Shown here in pieces: positions 11,221 through 27,046 of a stretch of DNA of 35,505 bases. Within the stretch, counting starts at the first letter, position 1; every line of letters starts with the position of its first letter. The DNA comes from Myxococcales bacterium. GTDB lineage: Bacteria > Myxococcota_A > Polyangia > GCA-2747355. A program made the translations under genes and the position numbers. The stretch lies in the NCBI GenBank assembly GCA_020431405.1, contig JAGQIK010000151.1, positions 1-35,505 on the forward strand, written 5' to 3'. Under the pieces are notes generated by a model that was given only the letters and a program-made list of their open reading frames with translations, ran no database searches and was not told the DNA's origin.

Positions 11221-14200
11221 CTAGGCGACAGAGAGTCCCAGCGTGGCCCGCGCCTCGAAGAACTGCTCGCTGACGCTGTAGGCCAGCATCTGCGCGAGGC
11301 GTGCCTTGGGGTTCATGCCGCCGGCGCGCGGGTCGTCGATGACCAGACGCGCCGCCGTCGGCAGGTCGTCGCAGAGCAGCAGCGCCGCGCGCGTCGCCGT
11401 TAGGTCGACACCCGCGAGCCACTCGTCGATGACCGGCGTTGCGCTCGCCTCGCCGAGCTCGTCGGCGTGCGAGGCGATCATCTCGACGTGCCGCGCTGGC
11501 AGGTCCGAGCGCAGCACGGCGACGAGCTGCTCGATCTCCTCGACGTCACCGCGGATGCGCGTCTTGGGCCGCACCAGCCGCAGCGCCGCCAGCGCGAACG
11601 CCTGCAGCACGTTGCTCGACGGCGTGATGAAGGCGAGCAGGTTCTCGCGCCGCAAAAGCGCCAGCGCGCGCGTGAACCAGAACGTCAGCTCGGGCTGCGT
11701 GCGCCGCTCGTCGAGCAGCATCGGCGCCACCCACAGAAGCACGTCGCGCTTGTTGACGTCACCGGCGATGACCGGCGCGACCTTCTCCTTGACGTCGCCG
11801 CGCAGGTGCAGCTCGTCGGCTTGCTGGCCGATGACGCGCGACGCGTAGTCGTAAGCGCGCGCGTAGGCGCGCGTGTCTTCCTGCGGGTTGAGCTGCTCGC
11901 CGGCCTTGAGCCCGTAGGCGTGCCGCGGGCGAAGCGCCATCGGCCCCACCACCGGCACGATCGCGTTGAACAGCTCGCTCAGCACGGGGTGCTGCTTTTC
12001 GTGCGTCACGCAGTCGCGCCACACCTGCTCGTCGAGCTTGCGCGTCACGCGGCGCATCTCGTCCGGCTTGAGCTTCTGGTAGAGCGCAGCCTCTTCGTTG
12101 GACGCGCGCTTGAGCAGCGTCAGCACCGCCGTCACGCACCAGGCCTTGTCCATCTGGCCCAGCTCGGCGTAGAGGCGCCTGAGCTCCTTGTAGGCCTCGA
12201 GGCGCATCGGGTCGCCCTGCAGCAGGCGCTGATTGGCGCGGATCGCCTTCTCGTAGGCGCTCGGCCCCGCCGAAACGTAGAGCCGCGACAGCTTCTCCTG
12301 CCGCTCGACGTTGCTCGGATCGAGCTTGGCCGCCACCTCGAACGCGACGATGGCGCCGCGCGCGTCGCGCAGCTGCGTCTCGCAGATGGTGCCCAGCTCG
12401 TGCCACAGGCGCACCTGCTCGGCCACTGGCGTCGACTCGGGCAGGCGCTTGAGCATGCGCCGGTAGGCCTTGACCAGCCCCTCGAAGTTGCCTTGCGCCG
12501 TGAACAACGTCTTGAGCGCGTTGAACGCCTTGACGTTGGTCGGGTCGTTTTCGAGCGCCAGGTCGAAGTGCCGCGCCGCCTGCTTGGGCTTGCCCAGCGT
12601 GTCGCGCAGGATCAGCGCCGCCGTGTAGTGCAGGCGGTACTTGTGCACTGGATCCGTCTCGAGCTCCTCGAGCCGACGCAGCACGCGCAGCGCCTCCTCC
12701 CACGACTTGTGCTCGATGAACGCTTCCATCGTCTTGTGCAGCACGCGCCGCTGGTCGGGCTCGACCTCGAGCGCCTGCTGGTAGTACTGCACGCCCTCTT
12801 TGCTGCGACCGAGCTGCTTGACCAAAAGGTCGCCCATCTCCTCGAGCAGCGCGAAGCGCTCCTTGTCGTTGGTGATGCTCTTGAGGCGCCCGCGCTGCGC
12901 GCGCAGCACAGCGTCGAAGTCACCCTTCTCCTCGTAGGCGTGCACGAGCCGCGCGAGCACCGTCGGATCGTTGGGATCGACGTCGAGCGCCTTCTCGTAC
13001 ATGTTGAGCGCTTTGGTGTGCTCGCCCATCGCCTCTTTGACTTCACCGAGGCGCGTGAAGACGCGCACGATGTCTGACGTCTCCATCGTGTCGCGGCGGT
13101 GCACCAGCAGCGCCTGGTACAGCTTGCCCGCCTCCTCGTGCTCGCCGCTCTCGAAGAGCTGCTCGGCGAGGTTGCCGAGGGCAGTCGAGTTGGTGGGGTC
13201 GAGCTCGTAGGCGCGACGGTAGGCGACGATGGCGTCGGCGCGCCGCTCGGCCTGCATGTACGCATCACCGAGGCGCAGGTTGAGATCGATGGCGCGCTTG
13301 CGGTCGCCCTTCGATCCCGTGGTGCTCGACTTGCGCACCAGCATCTCGAGCATCGGCAGCGCCTTGTCGAGCTCGCCCTGCTTTTCGTAGATCGCCGAGA
13401 GGCGCTGGCCAGCAGCGACGTGCTCGGGATCGATCTCCATCAGCTCGACGTAGACCTCGCGCGCCCGCTCCTCGTCGAAGAGGTCGTCCTGATAGGTCGT
13501 GCCGGCGTCGAAGAAGCGCTCCACGCGCTCGAGCTCGTTGGCCGTGTTGCGCGCGGCCTCGCGCATCAAGCGCGCCGCCTTGCCGTAGTCCTTGCGCTTG
13601 CGGTTGAGGCGCGCCAGCGAGACCAGCGTCGGCACGTGGTCGTCCTTGAGCTCGAGCGCCTTGACCAGGTTGCCCTCGGCGTCCTCGAGCCGCTCGAGCT
13701 GCTCGCCCTGCAGACGGCCCATCTGGTAGAAGCACTCGACCTGCTTGTCGACGTCCTCCTCCTTGGTCGACAGGCGCTCGTACATCTCGACCGCCTGCGC
13801 CCACACGCTCGTCTTCTCGTAGAGCCGCGCGAGTGCCTCGAGGGCGATCTTGCTGTCGGCGTCGACGGTCAGCACGTTGTTGTAGCTCTCGATAGCGCGC
13901 GGGATGTCCTCGAGGTGCTCCTCGAGCACGCGACCGAGCGCCGCGTAGAGGATCGCGCGCTCGTCGGGCGCCTCGGTCACGCGCGCCTGCGCCGCGTAGG
14001 CGTCGGCGAGCTTGTCGTAGGCCTTGAGCTCCCAGTAGAGGCGGATCAGCGCCTTGTAGAGATCCTCGCCGCCGCCCGCCAGCGCCACGGCCTTCTCGAG
14101 ATACTCGGCCGCGCGGCTCTTGCCGCCAGCCTGCTCCTCCCACTCGGCGGCCAGGCGGCGATAGAGCGCCACCTTCTCGGCCTCCGACTCGGCCGCCTCG

Positions 14201-17163
14201 ATGCGCTGATCGAGGATACGCAGATACTCCTCGTTGCGCCCGGTGGCGTCATAGAGCCGCTCGAGCCCCTTGAGCGCCGCCGTATCGTCCGCGTCGAGCT
14301 GCAGGATGCGCTCGTACTGCTCGATCGCCTCCTCGGCCTTGCCGCTGTGCTCGGCGAGCACCTCGGCGAGCGAGCGACGCAGCCGCAGCTGCGCGGCGTG
14401 ATCGTGCGCTTCGGCGTGGCCGAGCCGATCGCGCAGCATCTCGGCGAGCTCCTCCCACATCTCGTTTTTGCGGTACAGCGAGTCGAGCGACTGCGTGGCG
14501 TGCTGATTGACCGGGTCGATCTCGAGGATCTTGCGGTAGGCCAGCATCGCCTGCTCGTCGCTGCCGAGGTCCTTGGCGTAGGTATGCGCCAGGTCCTTGT
14601 AGAGCTCGACCTTGCGCGCGTGGTTCTCCTCGAGCTGCGCCTGCCGCGAAAGCAGCCGCGCCACTTCCTTGTGGTCGCCCTTGCGCTTGACCACCTCGGC
14701 GAGCTCGCTAAGCGCGTCGGTGCGGTTGGCGTCGAGCGCCAGCGCTTGCCCGAAGGCGGCCGCGGCGTAGTCGTCGTGGCCGAGCTCGTTGGCGTAGAGC
14801 TGCCCCATGCGGACCCACCAGTCGCCCGCCACCTTGGGATCGCGCAGCGACTGCACCAGCGTGGTGTACTCCTGCAGGAGCTCGTTCCACATGCCCGTGG
14901 CGCCGGCGAGCCGCTCGAGGTCCTTGCGGATCTCGACGCTGTTGTGCGCCTCGCGGAAGGCCGCCTGCAGCGCGGCGAAGGCCTTGCCGAGATCGCCGAC
15001 CTCCATCTCGAAGATGCGCGCCACCTCGCGCAGCATCTCGTGGCGCTTTTCGCCCTCGGGCTCGATCTCGACGCGCCCCAGCAGCATCGTGACCAGCGTG
15101 TCCCAGTCCTTGTCGTCGCGCGCCTGCGACTCGAGCTTCTCGAGCGCCTCGAGCGCGCGCTCGTTTTCCGGCTGGAACGAGAGCACCTCGAGCCAACCGA
15201 TCAGATCATCGTCGCGGTCGGGCAGCGTGACCTCTTCGCCCGATCCCACCACGACCTTGATGAACTCGCCGACGCTCTGCGGGCGCTCTTCGGGCACCGC
15301 GCGCAGCGCGCGCATCACGATCGACTCGAAGCGGCGCGCGGCCGGGTTGGCCTCCGAGAGGCGCGGGAACGAGCCGAGCGGCGCGCGCTTGGTCAGCATG
15401 TAGTAGAGCGTCGCGCCCAGCGAGTAGACGTCCGCACGCTGGTCGGCGCCGGCGCCCGCCAGCAGCTCGGGCGCTTGGAAGCCCTCGGAGCCCTTCTTGA
15501 CGGTGACGTGGCGGCCCTTCTGCGCGCGGCCGGAGCGGAAGTCCATCAGCGCCACGCTGCCGTCGTCACGCAGGAAGATGTTCGACGGCATGATGTCGAG
15601 GTGCAGCACATCCTGCTCGTGCGCATACGCCAAGCCCTCGCAGACCTGCGAGATGATCTCGGCGGCGCGATCGGGCGTCAGCGCCGACCCCTCGCGCAGC
15701 TCGCGCGCGAGGCTGTGGCCGTTGAGGCTCTCGGTGACGAGCACGCAGCGGCCGCCCTCGACCAGCGCGCGATAGACGCGCGCCACGTTGGGGTGCTCGA
15801 GACCCGTGAGCACCTCGGTCTCTTTGAGCCAGCGCTCGGGCGAGACGTGCTCGCGCACGTAGCTGGTGCGCAGCACCTTGACGGTGACGTCCTTGTCGCC
15901 GTCTTCCTTGTCTTTGGCCTGGTAGACCGTGCCGGTGGTGCCGCGCCCGATGACGGCCGAGAGGTCGTAGCGCTTGGGCACCACGCGCATGGAGTCGTCG
16001 AGATCCGTGGCGCGCTTGAGGTGCTCGAGCGCCTTGCCAAAGTCCTTCGTCTCGGCGTGGGCGTGGTGCAGGTTGAGGTGCGCGTCGGCGAGGTCTTTGT
16101 CCTGCGCGAGCGCCGCCTCGAAGCACTGCACGGCGCCGCCGGAGTCACCGAGATAAAGGCGCACGTTGCCGAGACGCAGCAGCGTCGCCGGATCGAGCAG
16201 CGCCAGATCGATGCCCGCCGCCGTGTCGCGGATGCGCGCCAGCCGGCCCTCGGGGATGCTCAGACCTTCGCCGGCGACGACGTCGATGCGCGCCTCGACG
16301 GGGCCGAGGTTGCGTTTGAGCCAGGCGGCGGGATCGTCGACGTCCTCGACGCCGGCCGAGCTCTCGCGCCAGGCCTTCTGGAACTCCTCGATGACGTGCG
16401 TCAGCGCGGCGACCGCGTCGCCGTTGTCGTCGTAGGGGATCACGCGCAGGCGATAGTTGGCGTAGAGCTCCTCGGCCTCGGGCTCGCTGACGCGCGGCAT
16501 GATCGCGTAGTGATCGGAGACGGCGTCGCGGAAGGTGCCGACTAGACGGTCGAGGAACAGCTGGAAGTCGGGATCGCTGAGGCGATAGCCCACCAGCAGC
16601 ATCGTGCGCGTGCGGTAGAGGTCCTCGACGAAGGCGCGATAGGCGTGGTTGGGGCCGATCAGCCGCTTGTAGTCGAGGCGCGTGAGCACGGTCTTGTCGG
16701 GGTGCGCGACGTCGCCGTGCGCCTTGATGACGAAGTGCTCGAGGTCTTCGGCGAGGCGCAGCACGGCGCCGTCGGCGTAGCTGTAGATCTTGGGCGAGAC
16801 CGTCGAGAGCGACTTTTCGACGAGCGAGTCGTAGCCCGTCGAGAGCGCCGCGTGCCACGGGATCGCCGCCAGCAGCCGGTGCGCTGCCGAGGGTGACGCG
16901 CCGTTGCCGTAGGCCTCGCGCAGCATCGAACCGAACGTGTCGGCGCCGAGCTTGCGTTTGAGATAGCCCGCGGCGGTGAGCAGATCGCCCGCCGAGATCA
17001 CCGGGCGCAGCCCTTCGCTGTCGCCGCCGATCTTTTCGCTGAGCTTGGCCAGCAGGTCATCCCAGCTGGGCATTCCGGCGGTGGCGGCAAAACGCACGCC
17101 GCTGCACAGCACGACGTCGCCGGAGCGCAGGCGTTCGAATAGGGCGTCTGGAAACTCGACCAT
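11221..17163 (-). CDS. Giant SIR2-like / TPR / Ser-Thr kinase-like / multi-TPR protein
   Basis: A 1980-residue cytoplasmic protein; the start is ATG at 17163 with CAGGAGAG upstream. Residues 1-270 are a SIR2-like domain. Recognisable features are GMPSWDDLL (30-38), STGYDSLVE (108-116), KAHGDV with His149, VLTRLDY, and LLVGYRLSDPDF. However the GAGxS nucleotide motif is replaced by CSGVRF and the catalytic TTNYD Asn by Gly110. About 325-395 is a TPR pair. About 399-640 is a kinase domain with loop GRGTTGTVY (406-414), Lys429, HLDIMPSN (D523, N528; Arg to Leu and Lys to Met), DFR (541-543) instead of DFG, and an intact APE (564-566). From about 650 to 1740 there are many TPR units (for example AYRKILEIDP, QYERILQLDADD, MYEKALDVDPND). 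The last 240 residues are helical and unassigned. It is probably a large signalling scaffold; enzymatic activity of either module is doubtful. Confidence 0.9.
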   Translation of the reverse strand: MVEFPDALFERLRSGDVVLCSGVRFAATAGMPSWDDLLAKLSEKIGGDSEGLRPVISAGDLLTAAGYLKRKLGADTFGSMLREAYGNGASPSAAHRLLAAIPWHAALSTGYDSLVEKSLSTVSPKIYSYADGAVLRLAEDLEHFVIKAHGDVAHPDKTVLTRLDYKRLIGPNHAYRAFVEDLYRTRTMLLVGYRLSDPDFQLFLDRLVGTFRDAVSDHYAIMPRVSEPEAEELYANYRLRVIPYDDNGDAVAALTHVIEEFQKAWRESSAGVEDVDDPAAWLKRNLGPVEARIDVVAGEGLSIPEGRLARIRDTAAGIDLALLDPATLLRLGNVRLYLGDSGGAVQCFEAALAQDKDLADAHLNLHHAHAETKDFGKALEHLKRATDLDDSMRVVPKRYDLSAVIGRGTTGTVYQAKDKEDGDKDVTVKVLRTSYVREHVSPERWLKETEVLTGLEHPNVARVYRALVEGGRCVLVTESLNGHSLARELREGSALTPDRAAEIISQVCEGLAYAHEQDVLHLDIMPSNIFLRDDGSVALMDFRSGRAQKGRHVTVKKGSEGFQAPELLAGAGADQRADVYSLGATLYYMLTKRAPLGSFPRLSEANPAARRFESIVMRALRAVPEERPQSVGEFIKVVVGSGEEVTLPDRDDDLIGWLEVLSFQPENERALEALEKLESQARDDKDWDTLVTMLLGRVEIEPEGEKRHEMLREVARIFEMEVGDLGKAFAALQAAFREAHNSVEIRKDLERLAGATGMWNELLQEYTTLVQSLRDPKVAGDWWVRMGQLYANELGHDDYAAAAFGQALALDANRTDALSELAEVVKRKGDHKEVARLLSRQAQLEENHARKVELYKDLAHTYAKDLGSDEQAMLAYRKILEIDPVNQHATQSLDSLYRKNEMWEELAEMLRDRLGHAEAHDHAAQLRLRRSLAEVLAEHSGKAEEAIEQYERILQLDADDTAALKGLERLYDATGRNEEYLRILDQRIEAAESEAEKVALYRRLAAEWEEQAGGKSRAAEYLEKAVALAGGGEDLYKALIRLYWELKAYDKLADAYAAQARVTEAPDERAILYAALGRVLEEHLEDIPRAIESYNNVLTVDADSKIALEALARLYEKTSVWAQAVEMYERLSTKEEDVDKQVECFYQMGRLQGEQLERLEDAEGNLVKALELKDDHVPTLVSLARLNRKRKDYGKAARLMREAARNTANELERVERFFDAGTTYQDDLFDEERAREVYVELMEIDPEHVAAGQRLSAIYEKQGELDKALPMLEMLVRKSSTTGSKGDRKRAIDLNLRLGDAYMQAERRADAIVAYRRAYELDPTNSTALGNLAEQLFESGEHEEAGKLYQALLVHRRDTMETSDIVRVFTRLGEVKEAMGEHTKALNMYEKALDVDPNDPTVLARLVHAYEEKGDFDAVLRAQRGRLKSITNDKERFALLEEMGDLLVKQLGRSKEGVQYYQQALEVEPDQRRVLHKTMEAFIEHKSWEEALRVLRRLEELETDPVHKYRLHYTAALILRDTLGKPKQAARHFDLALENDPTNVKAFNALKTLFTAQGNFEGLVKAYRRMLKRLPESTPVAEQVRLWHELGTICETQLRDARGAIVAFEVAAKLDPSNVERQEKLSRLYVSAGPSAYEKAIRANQRLLQGDPMRLEAYKELRRLYAELGQMDKAWCVTAVLTLLKRASNEEAALYQKLKPDEMRRVTRKLDEQVWRDCVTHEKQHPVLSELFNAIVPVVGPMALRPRHAYGLKAGEQLNPQEDTRAYARAYDYASRVIGQQADELHLRGDVKEKVAPVIAGDVNKRDVLLWVAPMLLDERRTQPELTFWFTRALALLRRENLLAFITPSSNVLQAFALAALRLVRPKTRIRGDVEEIEQLVAVLRSDLPARHVEMIASHADELGEASATPVIDEWLAGVDLTATRAALLLCDDLPTAARLVIDDPRAGGMNPKARLAQMLAYSVSEQFFEARATLGLSVA

Positions 17164-24528: not shown

Positions 24529-26859
24529 TCAACGATACAGCAGGTAGCGACGGCGCCGCGCGGCGAAGGCGCGCAGGTCCTGACGCCACAGCGCGACGAC
24601 CTGGGAGAGCGGCTTTCCAGCGAGGATCGCGCTGTTTACGCTCGGATCGGCGACGAGCTTGATCAGCTGCGCGGTGTGCCAGTGCGCCGCGAAGAGACGT
24701 CGCAGCGCGAGCGCGATGGCCGCGCCGGTGCGGCCGACATCGAAGCGCGCGGCGTCGAGCAGCAGCAGGCGCACGCCGTCGCAGCGCTTGCGGCGGTGGC
24801 GTGACGAGCGCGGCGTGCGCGCCTCGGGCACGAAGTAGGCGCCGGCGAGGCCGAGCGCGTTGAGCGCGCGCGCCAGCTTGACGCCGTCGATCCACGGCGC
24901 GCCGAGCCACAAGAACGGGCTGTCGGTGCCGCGGCCGACGGCGACGTTGGTGCCTTCGACGAGCCCCACCGCGCCGTAGGTCAGCGCCTGGCGCCAGCTG
25001 CGGATGTTCGGCGACGGGTTGACCCAGCGCAGGCCCTGGCGGTCGAAGCGCTGCGCGCGCCGCCAGCCGCGCACCTTGATGACCTCGGGCTTGGCGCCGA
25101 TGCGGCGCTCGCGATCGAGCAGCAGCGAAAGCTCGCCCATGGTCATGCCGTAGCGCACCGGCAGCGCGTGGTAGCGCGTGGCGTGGCCGAGGCGGTAGCG
25201 CGCCACGGGGCCCGAGAGCTTGACCGCGCCGAGGGGGTTGGGTCGGTCGAGCACGACGAAGCGCAGCTTGTGGCGCGCGGCGGCGCGCATCGACCAGCCC
25301 ATGGTCGCGATGTACGTGTAGTAGCGCACGCCGATGGCAGCGACGTCGAAGACGATGGTGTCCACACCGGCGAGCGTCTTGCTGGTCGGCCGCTGGCGGC
25401 GGCCGAAGAGGCTGTAGACGGGCACACTGCGCCCGCTCGGGGTGCGCCACTTGCCGTCGCGGATGCGGCGATCGACGCGCGCCGAGAGGCCGTGCTCGGG
25501 GGCGAAGAGCGCGACGAGCGAGACGTCGCGCGCGGCGTCGAAGATCTCGCCGATCCAGCGGCCGCGCGCGTCGATGGCGGTGCGGTTGGTCACCAGCGCC
25601 ACGCGCCGGCCGTGCAGGCGCTTGAGCTTTTCGGCGACGAGCACGTCGAGCCCGACGCGAACGCGCCCGCCGCGGCGACGGCGCCCGCGCAGCAGCGCAC
25701 CGCGCACCAGCGCGTGCACGCGACGCCGCAAGCGCGAGACCGAAGGGTGTACGTCCTTGCGCAGCTCGAGATAGGTGCGGTTAGTGAGCAGCACGACGAC
25801 GGTGTCGGCGCGCGGGTCGATGAAGATCGAGGTGCCGGTAAAGCCCGTGTGTCCGAAGCGTCCGCTGCGGCTGACGATCCAGCCCAGCCCGCGCGTGCGG
25901 CCGCCGGGCAGCGCGTGGCGTTGGGTCATGGCGCGGATCGAGGCGCGGCTGAGCACGCGTCGGTTGGCCAGCTTGCCGCCGCGCAGCAGCGCCAGGCCAA
26001 AGCGCGCCAGGTCGTCGGCGGTGGCGTAGAGGCCGGCGTGGCCGGCGATGCCGCGCATGCGCTCGGAGAGTGGATCGTAGACGATGCCGTCTTTGTGCTT
26101 CCAGCGCCCGCGCGGCCACGGCGTGATCAATCGCGCCCGCACGCGGCGCGGCGGCGCGAAGCCGGCGCTGCACATGCCGAGCGGCGCGAGGATGTGCGAG
26201 CGCACGTAGCGGTCGAAGCGTTTGCCGGAGAGCTTCTCGACGAGCGCGGCGAGCAGGATGAAGCCCGCGTCGCTGTACTTGACGCGTGTACCGGGCGCCG
26301 CGCGCACGCGCGAGCGCTTGATGCGGCGCAGGATGATCTTCGGGTCGAACGTCAGGTCGCCCTTGGCGACCACCGAGTGCAGCCCGCTGATGTGCAGGAG
26401 CAGCTGCCTGACGGTGATGCTGCGCTTGTCGGGCCCCAGCCAACGCAGGTGCTTGGCCACCGGGTCGTCGAGCCGCAGCTTGCCGCGCTCGACGAGCTGC
26501 AGCACCGACGTCACGGTGGCGACGACCTTGGTCACCGACGCCAAGTCGAAGATCGTGTCGAGCTTGGCGCCGCCCACGGCGCGTCGATAGACAACGCGGC
26601 CGCGGCGCACGACCACGAGCTGAGCTGCCGGGATGATCTTGCGGCGCAGCGCGTCGCGCAGCAGCGCGTCGAGATCTGCGGTCAGGTCGTCGACTATCCC
26701 GACGGCGCTCGGTCGCGCCGACGGCAGCGGCTGGGTGGTGCAGGACGGCCAGGGGTCACGGCCAGCGAAGGCATCGTAGGTTGGCCCCTCGCGCTTGGCC
26801 CAAGCTGGCGCCGCGATCAGCAGCACGGCCTGTACGAGCGGGATCAGGCGAAGGCGCAC
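24529..26859 (-). CDS. Beta-lactamase-family serine hydrolase fused to NamZ (DUF1343) N-acetylmuramidase
   Basis: A 776-residue exported two-domain enzyme. The start is taken as GTG at 26859, giving the signal peptide LRLIPLVQAVLLIAAPAWA; the longer frame to 27024 is Arg-rich and unlikely. Residues about 55-385 are a class C beta-lactamase/DD-peptidase-like fold with SVTK (Ser108, Lys111), Tyr-Ser-Asp (YSDAGF) and HTGFTG. Residues about 395-776 match NamZ/DUF1343: VALVTNRTAID, LFAPEHGLSARVD, VYSLFGRRQRP, DTIVFDVAAIGVRYYTYI, FVVLDRPNPLG and VGLVEGTNVAVGRGTDSPF. Known NamZ enzymes release N-acetylmuramic acid from the non-reducing ends of peptidoglycan fragments. The fusion suggests one protein acting on both peptide and sugar parts of murein, for recycling or for attacking other bacteria. 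It is the first gene of an operon with the thioredoxin-fold protein. Confidence 0.9.
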   Translation of the reverse strand: MRLRLIPLVQAVLLIAAPAWAKREGPTYDAFAGRDPWPSCTTQPLPSARPSAVGIVDDLTADLDALLRDALRRKIIPAAQLVVVRRGRVVYRRAVGGAKLDTIFDLASVTKVVATVTSVLQLVERGKLRLDDPVAKHLRWLGPDKRSITVRQLLLHISGLHSVVAKGDLTFDPKIILRRIKRSRVRAAPGTRVKYSDAGFILLAALVEKLSGKRFDRYVRSHILAPLGMCSAGFAPPRRVRARLITPWPRGRWKHKDGIVYDPLSERMRGIAGHAGLYATADDLARFGLALLRGGKLANRRVLSRASIRAMTQRHALPGGRTRGLGWIVSRSGRFGHTGFTGTSIFIDPRADTVVVLLTNRTYLELRKDVHPSVSRLRRRVHALVRGALLRGRRRRGGRVRVGLDVLVAEKLKRLHGRRVALVTNRTAIDARGRWIGEIFDAARDVSLVALFAPEHGLSARVDRRIRDGKWRTPSGRSVPVYSLFGRRQRPTSKTLAGVDTIVFDVAAIGVRYYTYIATMGWSMRAAARHKLRFVVLDRPNPLGAVKLSGPVARYRLGHATRYHALPVRYGMTMGELSLLLDRERRIGAKPEVIKVRGWRRAQRFDRQGLRWVNPSPNIRSWRQALTYGAVGLVEGTNVAVGRGTDSPFLWLGAPWIDGVKLARALNALGLAGAYFVPEARTPRSSRHRRKRCDGVRLLLLDAARFDVGRTGAAIALALRRLFAAHWHTAQLIKLVADPSVNSAILAGKPLSQVVALWRQDLRAFAARRRRYLLYR

Positions 26860-27046
26860 CGAGATAGGGTAGCTCAAGGGAGGGGCAGCTGCGAAAAGAC
26901 GGGCGAAACGAGGCGGTGCGGTGCGTCCAAGCGCGGTGCGGGCGATTTGGCCACCGGCTACAGCCCGACCGATCGGCACGCGCACGCGCCGGGGTCGACG
27001 TCGGCGAGACACGCTCGAGAGCACGCCGTGATCGGAGGCGCGACGG
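26860..27046. other. Intergenic sequence without recognisable gene
   Basis: Between the beta-lactamase/NamZ start and the hairpin array I see no convincing gene: the frames here are shadows with Arg-rich composition. It presumably holds the promoter of the minus-strand gene at 26859, but no clear -35/-10 pair is visible. No tRNA fold was found. Confidence 0.4.

Follow-up and report, generated by a model that had tools for sequence, protein, structure and literature searches.

A giant SIR2-TPR-kinase-TPR protein with a C-terminal pseudo-M48 domain: probably a binding or signalling scaffold built from degenerate enzyme folds

What is a bacterial protein for when it carries several enzyme folds whose active sites seem to be gone? 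The question is raised by a giant gene in a 35,505-nucleotide stretch of DNA from a Myxococcales bacterium (contig JAGQIK010000151.1, positions 1 to 35,505; the whole stretch is called the window here). Its product joins a SIR2-like head, TPRs, a kinase-like domain and, at its C-terminal end, a domain of M48 type. Since the active sites of all three enzyme folds have been lost and have stayed lost across many species, the protein is probably a binding or signalling scaffold rather than an enzyme. SIR2-like domains have been studied almost only as NAD-cleaving effectors, and a family that keeps the SIR2 fold, with new conserved residues, after a class-wide loss of the catalytic Asn offers a natural test of a non-catalytic SIR2 role. 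Descriptions of a SIR2-TPR-kinase fusion, or of the C-terminal domain, were looked for in open-licence papers and none was found, which is weak evidence of absence.

The open reading frame has an ATG start and runs uninterrupted, free of frameshifts and stops; its GC content at the three codon positions (0.72/0.40/0.93) is a coding pattern, the same as in the neighbouring genes. Pfam places SIR2_2 at residues 106-242 (E 1.4e-24), Pkinase at residues 399-615 and many TPRs along the protein. The SIR2-TPR-kinase-TPR layout described in the first-pass annotation thus agrees with both the reading frame and Pfam, and the motifs quoted there are all in place; the strand is added here, and the domain list lacked only the C-terminal pseudo-M48 domain (Table 1). 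The source genome, of 11.2 Mb, has 154 Pkinase matches and a single SIR2_2 match, which is the window protein; Pfam finds no second SIR2_2 there.

Table 1. Features of the giant gene and its product, in window coordinates
Feature	Position	Strand	Evidence
Whole gene, 1980 aa: pseudo-SIR2, TPR pair, putatively degenerate kinase, TPR array, pseudo-M48	11221..17163	-	ORF, codon GC, Pfam, colinear full-length relatives
SIR2-like domain, residues 1-270, lacking the catalytic Asn	16354..17163	-	Pfam SIR2_2; AF2 pLDDT 95.3; SeThsA Z 25.8; ThsA profile E 5.9e-30
CSGVRF, residues 20-25, replacing GAGxS as the nucleotide loop; all 50 family rows have G22	17089..17106	-	
STGYD, residues 108-112, replacing TTNYD; catalytic Asn is Gly110	16828..16842	-	
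HGDVA with His149 kept in the window protein; Leu/Phe or segment missing in most relatives	16705..16719	-	
Linker and TPR pair, residues 271-395	15979..16353	-	Alignment coverage; Pfam TPR_11 at 332-371
Kinase-like domain, residues 396-640	15244..15978	-	Pfam Pkinase E 4.4e-42; kinase alignment
VTVKVL, VAIK equivalent, Lys429 kept	15871..15888	-	
HLDIMPSN, residues 521-528; D523 and N528 kept, HRD Arg and catalytic-loop Lys lost	15580..15603	-	
DFRSG replacing DFG (DFR, residues 541-543)	15529..15543	-	
Long TPR array, residues 641-1689	12097..15243	-	Pfam TPR families; colinear in relatives
C-terminal pseudo-M48 domain, residues 1690-1980	11224..12096	-	AF2 pLDDT 93.3; gluzincins lead structural list, Z 7.0-7.7; hhalign vs M48
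ELTFWFTRALAL, residues 1825-1836, opposite M48 helix ELAFVIGHECGH; HExxH lost	11656..11691	-	Profile alignment
VDLTATRAALLLCDDLPTAAR, residues 1919-1939, opposite M48 AEITCDRAGLICAGDL; third zinc ligand Glu replaced by Asp	11347..11409	-	Profile alignment

The SIR2 head belongs to the SIR2_2 fold (PF13289), with a Pfam score of 87.2 bits against a cut-off of 24.5. The AlphaFold2 model of residues 1-270, a prediction that had been proposed as a check, is a confident SIR2 fold; among solved structures ThsA, DSR2 and KomC come closest, followed by FAM118B. Of the active-site signature of a SIR2_2 NADase, which consists of the Asn in TTN[YF]D and a downstream His, the window protein has only the His. 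In the giant family the Asn column holds Gly, Ser, Ala, Phe or another residue, and the sole member examined that has an Asn (L067, ATNYA) is without the Asp and the His. SIR2_2 proteins outside the giant family keep TTN[YF][DE] and the His intact; the Asn column carries 1.5 bits in 50 giant-family rows versus 4.3 bits (Asn in 11/11) outside the family. In ThsA, the mutation N112A, in the same column as Gly110, is described as NADase-null (PMC10022894). This result and the family-wide loss of the Asn together lend good support to the prediction that the SIR2 head cannot cleave NAD.

His149 is shared by the window's order, by L045 and by L090, the second copy in genome G004; its position is mostly Leu or Phe in other relatives. 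Other positions have become fixed: G22, D197 and H218 are invariant in all 50 giant-family rows, and the conservation of R70, R104 and R206 lies mainly within the giants. Across 13 family-level groups, with identities of about 25-35%, both the fold and these family-specific residues persist. Since the fold is intact and new residues have become conserved, the SIR2 head is a retained pseudoenzyme and not a product of decay. It might still be argued that the SIR2 and kinase modules are roleless, decaying relics beside a working TPR and C-terminal part, as the shrunken or missing SIR2 part of Nannocystaceae members (see below) would suggest. This view is improbable in the face of the conserved SIR2 residues, of a window gene that is still open throughout, and of a kinase-like domain conserved better than any other segment in the window's order.

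A local defect or sequencing error is also rejected, since independent genomes carry the same losses. The nearest relatives, L043 and L044 from other genomes of the order, read TTGYD/STGYD at the Asn motif, HLDLQP/HLDVMP in the catalytic loop and DFR; because both share them, the substitutions in the window protein are not sequencing errors. Nearby homologues with an intact Asn and GAG loop, named in the first-pass annotation as the evidence that would count against its reading, were looked for and did not overturn it; the Asn is lost in all giant relatives examined except L067. Two candidates for intact-Asn members, L062 and L063 (from genomes G247 and G230), were rejected as 1200-aa SIR2 + AAA proteins that align poorly downstream. 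The TTNYD motif and His of these two proteins are intact, and they recall SIR2-STAND defence proteins.

The resemblance of the head to ThsA of the Thoeris system is close. ThsA is its best match in both fold (over 257 residues) and profile, and the motif positions align; however, ThsA has the Asn and the His and hydrolyses NAD, whereas the window head is without the Asn, and TPR, kinase and M48-like parts stand where ThsA has a C-terminal module of its own. DSR2 and KomC, two anti-phage proteins with Z scores of 21-24 to the window head, likewise carry a SIR2-like head within a larger assembly; they are catalytic in their own systems, whereas the window head is without the Asn and its gene lies in conserved chromosomal surroundings. 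Human FAM118A and FAM118B likewise have SIR2_2 folds (Z 19.4, profile 4.8e-15). FAM118B forms filaments and requires partnership with FAM118A (PMC12700824). In contrast to the window protein, FAM118 proteins retain the Asn and the His, mutation of either of which abolishes activity, and no fused TPR or kinase is mentioned in the text available.

The link to defence systems that had been drawn from the SIR2 fold is not supported. A head that depletes NAD as a defence effector of ThsA or DSR type, by means of other residues, would fit the nearest solved folds and the PADLOC ThsA model, which matches residues 4-232, but it is very improbable: Gly stands in place of the Asn, a family-wide loss, Pfam finds no ThsA-type C-terminal module, and the only PADLOC matches among nine neighbours are to a generic kinase. 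Thoeris consists of an active ThsA with a nearby ThsB; the Asn is lost here, and neither a TIR domain (Pfam) nor ThsB (PADLOC) was found among the neighbours scanned. The flanking genes are common to the window gene and its relatives in the order, which argues that the giant gene is chromosomal and has been kept vertically within the order. A mobile defence island is rejected on the same grounds, with no defence genes among the neighbours scanned.

The family is widespread in the class, which we take to be Polyangia. With residues 1-387 as query, strong relatives are found in the window's order (G003, 58%; G002, 54%), and weaker matches in 109 of the 289 genomes from the class; unrelated SIR2 proteins contribute to this number. 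In a phylum-wide search with the family profile, matches at E <= 1e-58 are confined to the window's class. Thirty-six further relatives were inspected in full or partial sequence; they follow the window protein in the order SIR2 head, TPR array and C-terminus, and include cultured Enhygromyxa. Several genomes (G079, G045, G004 and G153) have two or three copies, and in G153 two matches with similar scores lie on opposite strands.

The SIR2-TPR architecture is found across the class, and the kinase is an optional insert: residues 271-640, the TPR pair and the kinase, are absent from most relatives, which are SIR2-TPR proteins. The insert occurs in two lineages only, the window's order and a second one (group f8) that was found, in a scan of named genomes, in Enhygromyxa salina, Plesiocystis pacifica and Paraliomyxa miuraensis, and that presumably corresponds to Nannocystaceae. 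The His149 segment is missing in this second lineage. Of L210, L214 and L216, the P. pacifica and P. miuraensis relatives have no matched SIR2 segment and a kinase that is degraded further; in L216 the SIR2 part is shortened and the kinase absent. The SIR2 head thus appears to be expendable in Nannocystaceae, and so is not essential in every lineage.

The kinase-like domain is a member of the Ser/Thr kinase fold (PF00069; 144.7 bits against a cut-off of 31.7). Lys429 is kept, but the signature of an active enzyme is broken by HLDIM in place of HRDxK and by DFR in place of DFG. In the window's order (three sequences, one of them truncated) Lys429, the alpha-C Glu, D523, N528 and D541 are all kept, together with HLDx[MQ]P and DFR. 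In the nine Nannocystaceae-type kinases the VAIK Lys and the DFG Asp are also lost, and judged by these residues that kinase is plainly dead. Both kinase-bearing lineages thus carry damaged kinases, and the loss common to them is that of the catalytic-loop Lys. The two lineages group on a tree of the TPR part (94) and on a kinase tree with 30 kinases of the source genome (96), both of them quickly built and long-branched, and are not joined on a tree of the SIR2 part. Since they group on the TPR and kinase trees, a single gain of the kinase would be favoured over two gains.

Of the earlier reading that both enzyme modules look inactivated, the part concerning SIR2 is supported; for the window kinase, which keeps its ATP-binding residues, we infer inactivation from sequence, and the SIR2 loss is much firmer. 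Since the domain is conserved in the window's order (73% between the window protein and L043, against 49-64% elsewhere), it is likely to be functional; ordinary catalysis is unlikely given the residues it lacks, but residual or weak activity could persist. A live but unusual kinase that phosphorylates partners held by the TPRs, with only the SIR2 and M48 folds dead, would account for ATP/Mg-binding residues kept in 3/3 order sequences and for the domain being the most conserved segment. It is nevertheless unlikely: the HRD Arg, the catalytic-loop Lys and the DFG Gly are lost, the sister lineage is plainly dead, and HRDxKP and DFG are present in all of the 30 best-scoring kinases from the source genome, a sample biased to high scores. 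In Myxococcus xanthus the tyrosine pseudokinase EcpK has a non-catalytic role; EcpK is of a different kinase type and acts in exopolysaccharide synthesis, and the part of the report that is available does not mention a SIR2/TPR fusion such as that of the window protein (PMC12004946).

The C-terminal domain has no Pfam or PDB match by sequence; none of 33 members matches M48 (PF01435) at E <= 10, nor does their profile match PDB sequences. The leading structural matches of the AlphaFold2 model are gluzincin metallopeptidases (Z scores: Ste24p 7.7, 3c37 7.5, ZMPSTE24 7.2 and BepA 7.1), borderline values by themselves. Profile comparison with hhalign against M48 peptidases of the same class gives a probability of 96.4% (E 1.1e-9, 138 columns). 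For paralogue C-termini, compared on their own, it is 96.6% (5e-10), against 0.1-0.9% for unrelated profiles and for a reversed one and at most 0.5% for 30 column shuffles. The shuffles were made with a first M48 set that held some wrong-ORF rows, which are excluded from the final comparison. In the alignment, AEITCDRAG of M48 peptidases corresponds to VDLTATRAA, and the helix that bears the zinc site reads TRALA, so that the domain retains neither of the His residues, nor the catalytic Glu, nor the third ligand. No relative examined has HExxH at this position. The only HExxH string in the window domain, HEKQH, is rejected as a zinc site, being outside the aligned helix and not conserved. By fold and profile, the domain is a predicted degenerate M48-type metallopeptidase, the third degenerate enzyme fold of the protein; it escapes sequence searches and shares its chain with a putative pseudokinase. 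BepA, a zinc peptidase, likewise joins an M48-type fold to TPRs, but the window domain is without HExxH and its parts are in the reverse order.

The same genome has nine other matches to the pseudo-M48 domain, on eight contigs (C423, C181, C170, C298, C86, C382, C32 and C155; L161-L169), behind TPRs or in short frames, and the assignment gives a fold to the unannotated C-termini of several giant TPR proteins. In the paralogue on C86, an N-terminus that by eye is receiver-like precedes the same kind of core. Since N-termini are exchanged on a shared core, the SIR2/kinase part can be read as the input side.

A cytoplasmic scaffold or adaptor of pseudoenzymes, with a TPR/pseudo-M48 core and N-terminal input modules, is the reading we regard as probable. 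It fits the undescribed signalling scaffold proposed in the first-pass annotation and widens it by the pseudo-M48 C-terminus. The TPR array and the pseudo-M48 domain, the latter recurring at eight or more further sites in the genome, would form a hub that binds proteins. The pseudo-SIR2 head, joined in two lineages by the kinase-like insert, would act as input in the absence of catalysis, through self-association or by binding nucleotide-type ligands (NAD or an ADP-ribose-like molecule for SIR2, ATP for the window kinase); these candidate ligands are guesses taken from the folds. The state of the input would change the partners bound by the hub, and the input modules would be interchangeable on the common core. 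A more specific version, which we hold to be doubtful, is that these class-wide pseudoenzyme scaffolds, triple in two lineages, are sensors of NAD or energy status, in which non-catalytic binding of NAD/ADP-ribose and ATP would set the partners of the hub.

Two further features were seen around the giant genes. In the window, positions 24529-27024 of the minus strand encode a NamZ exo-muramidase joined to a domain of the serine beta-lactamase fold; L043 and L044 have a homologue of this fusion close to their giant gene. In eight kinase-less loci (L046, L047, L048, L050, L053, L054, L061 and L068) the giant gene is followed, in the same direction, by a gene for a protein of some 300-350 aa that looks secreted, a possible operon partner.
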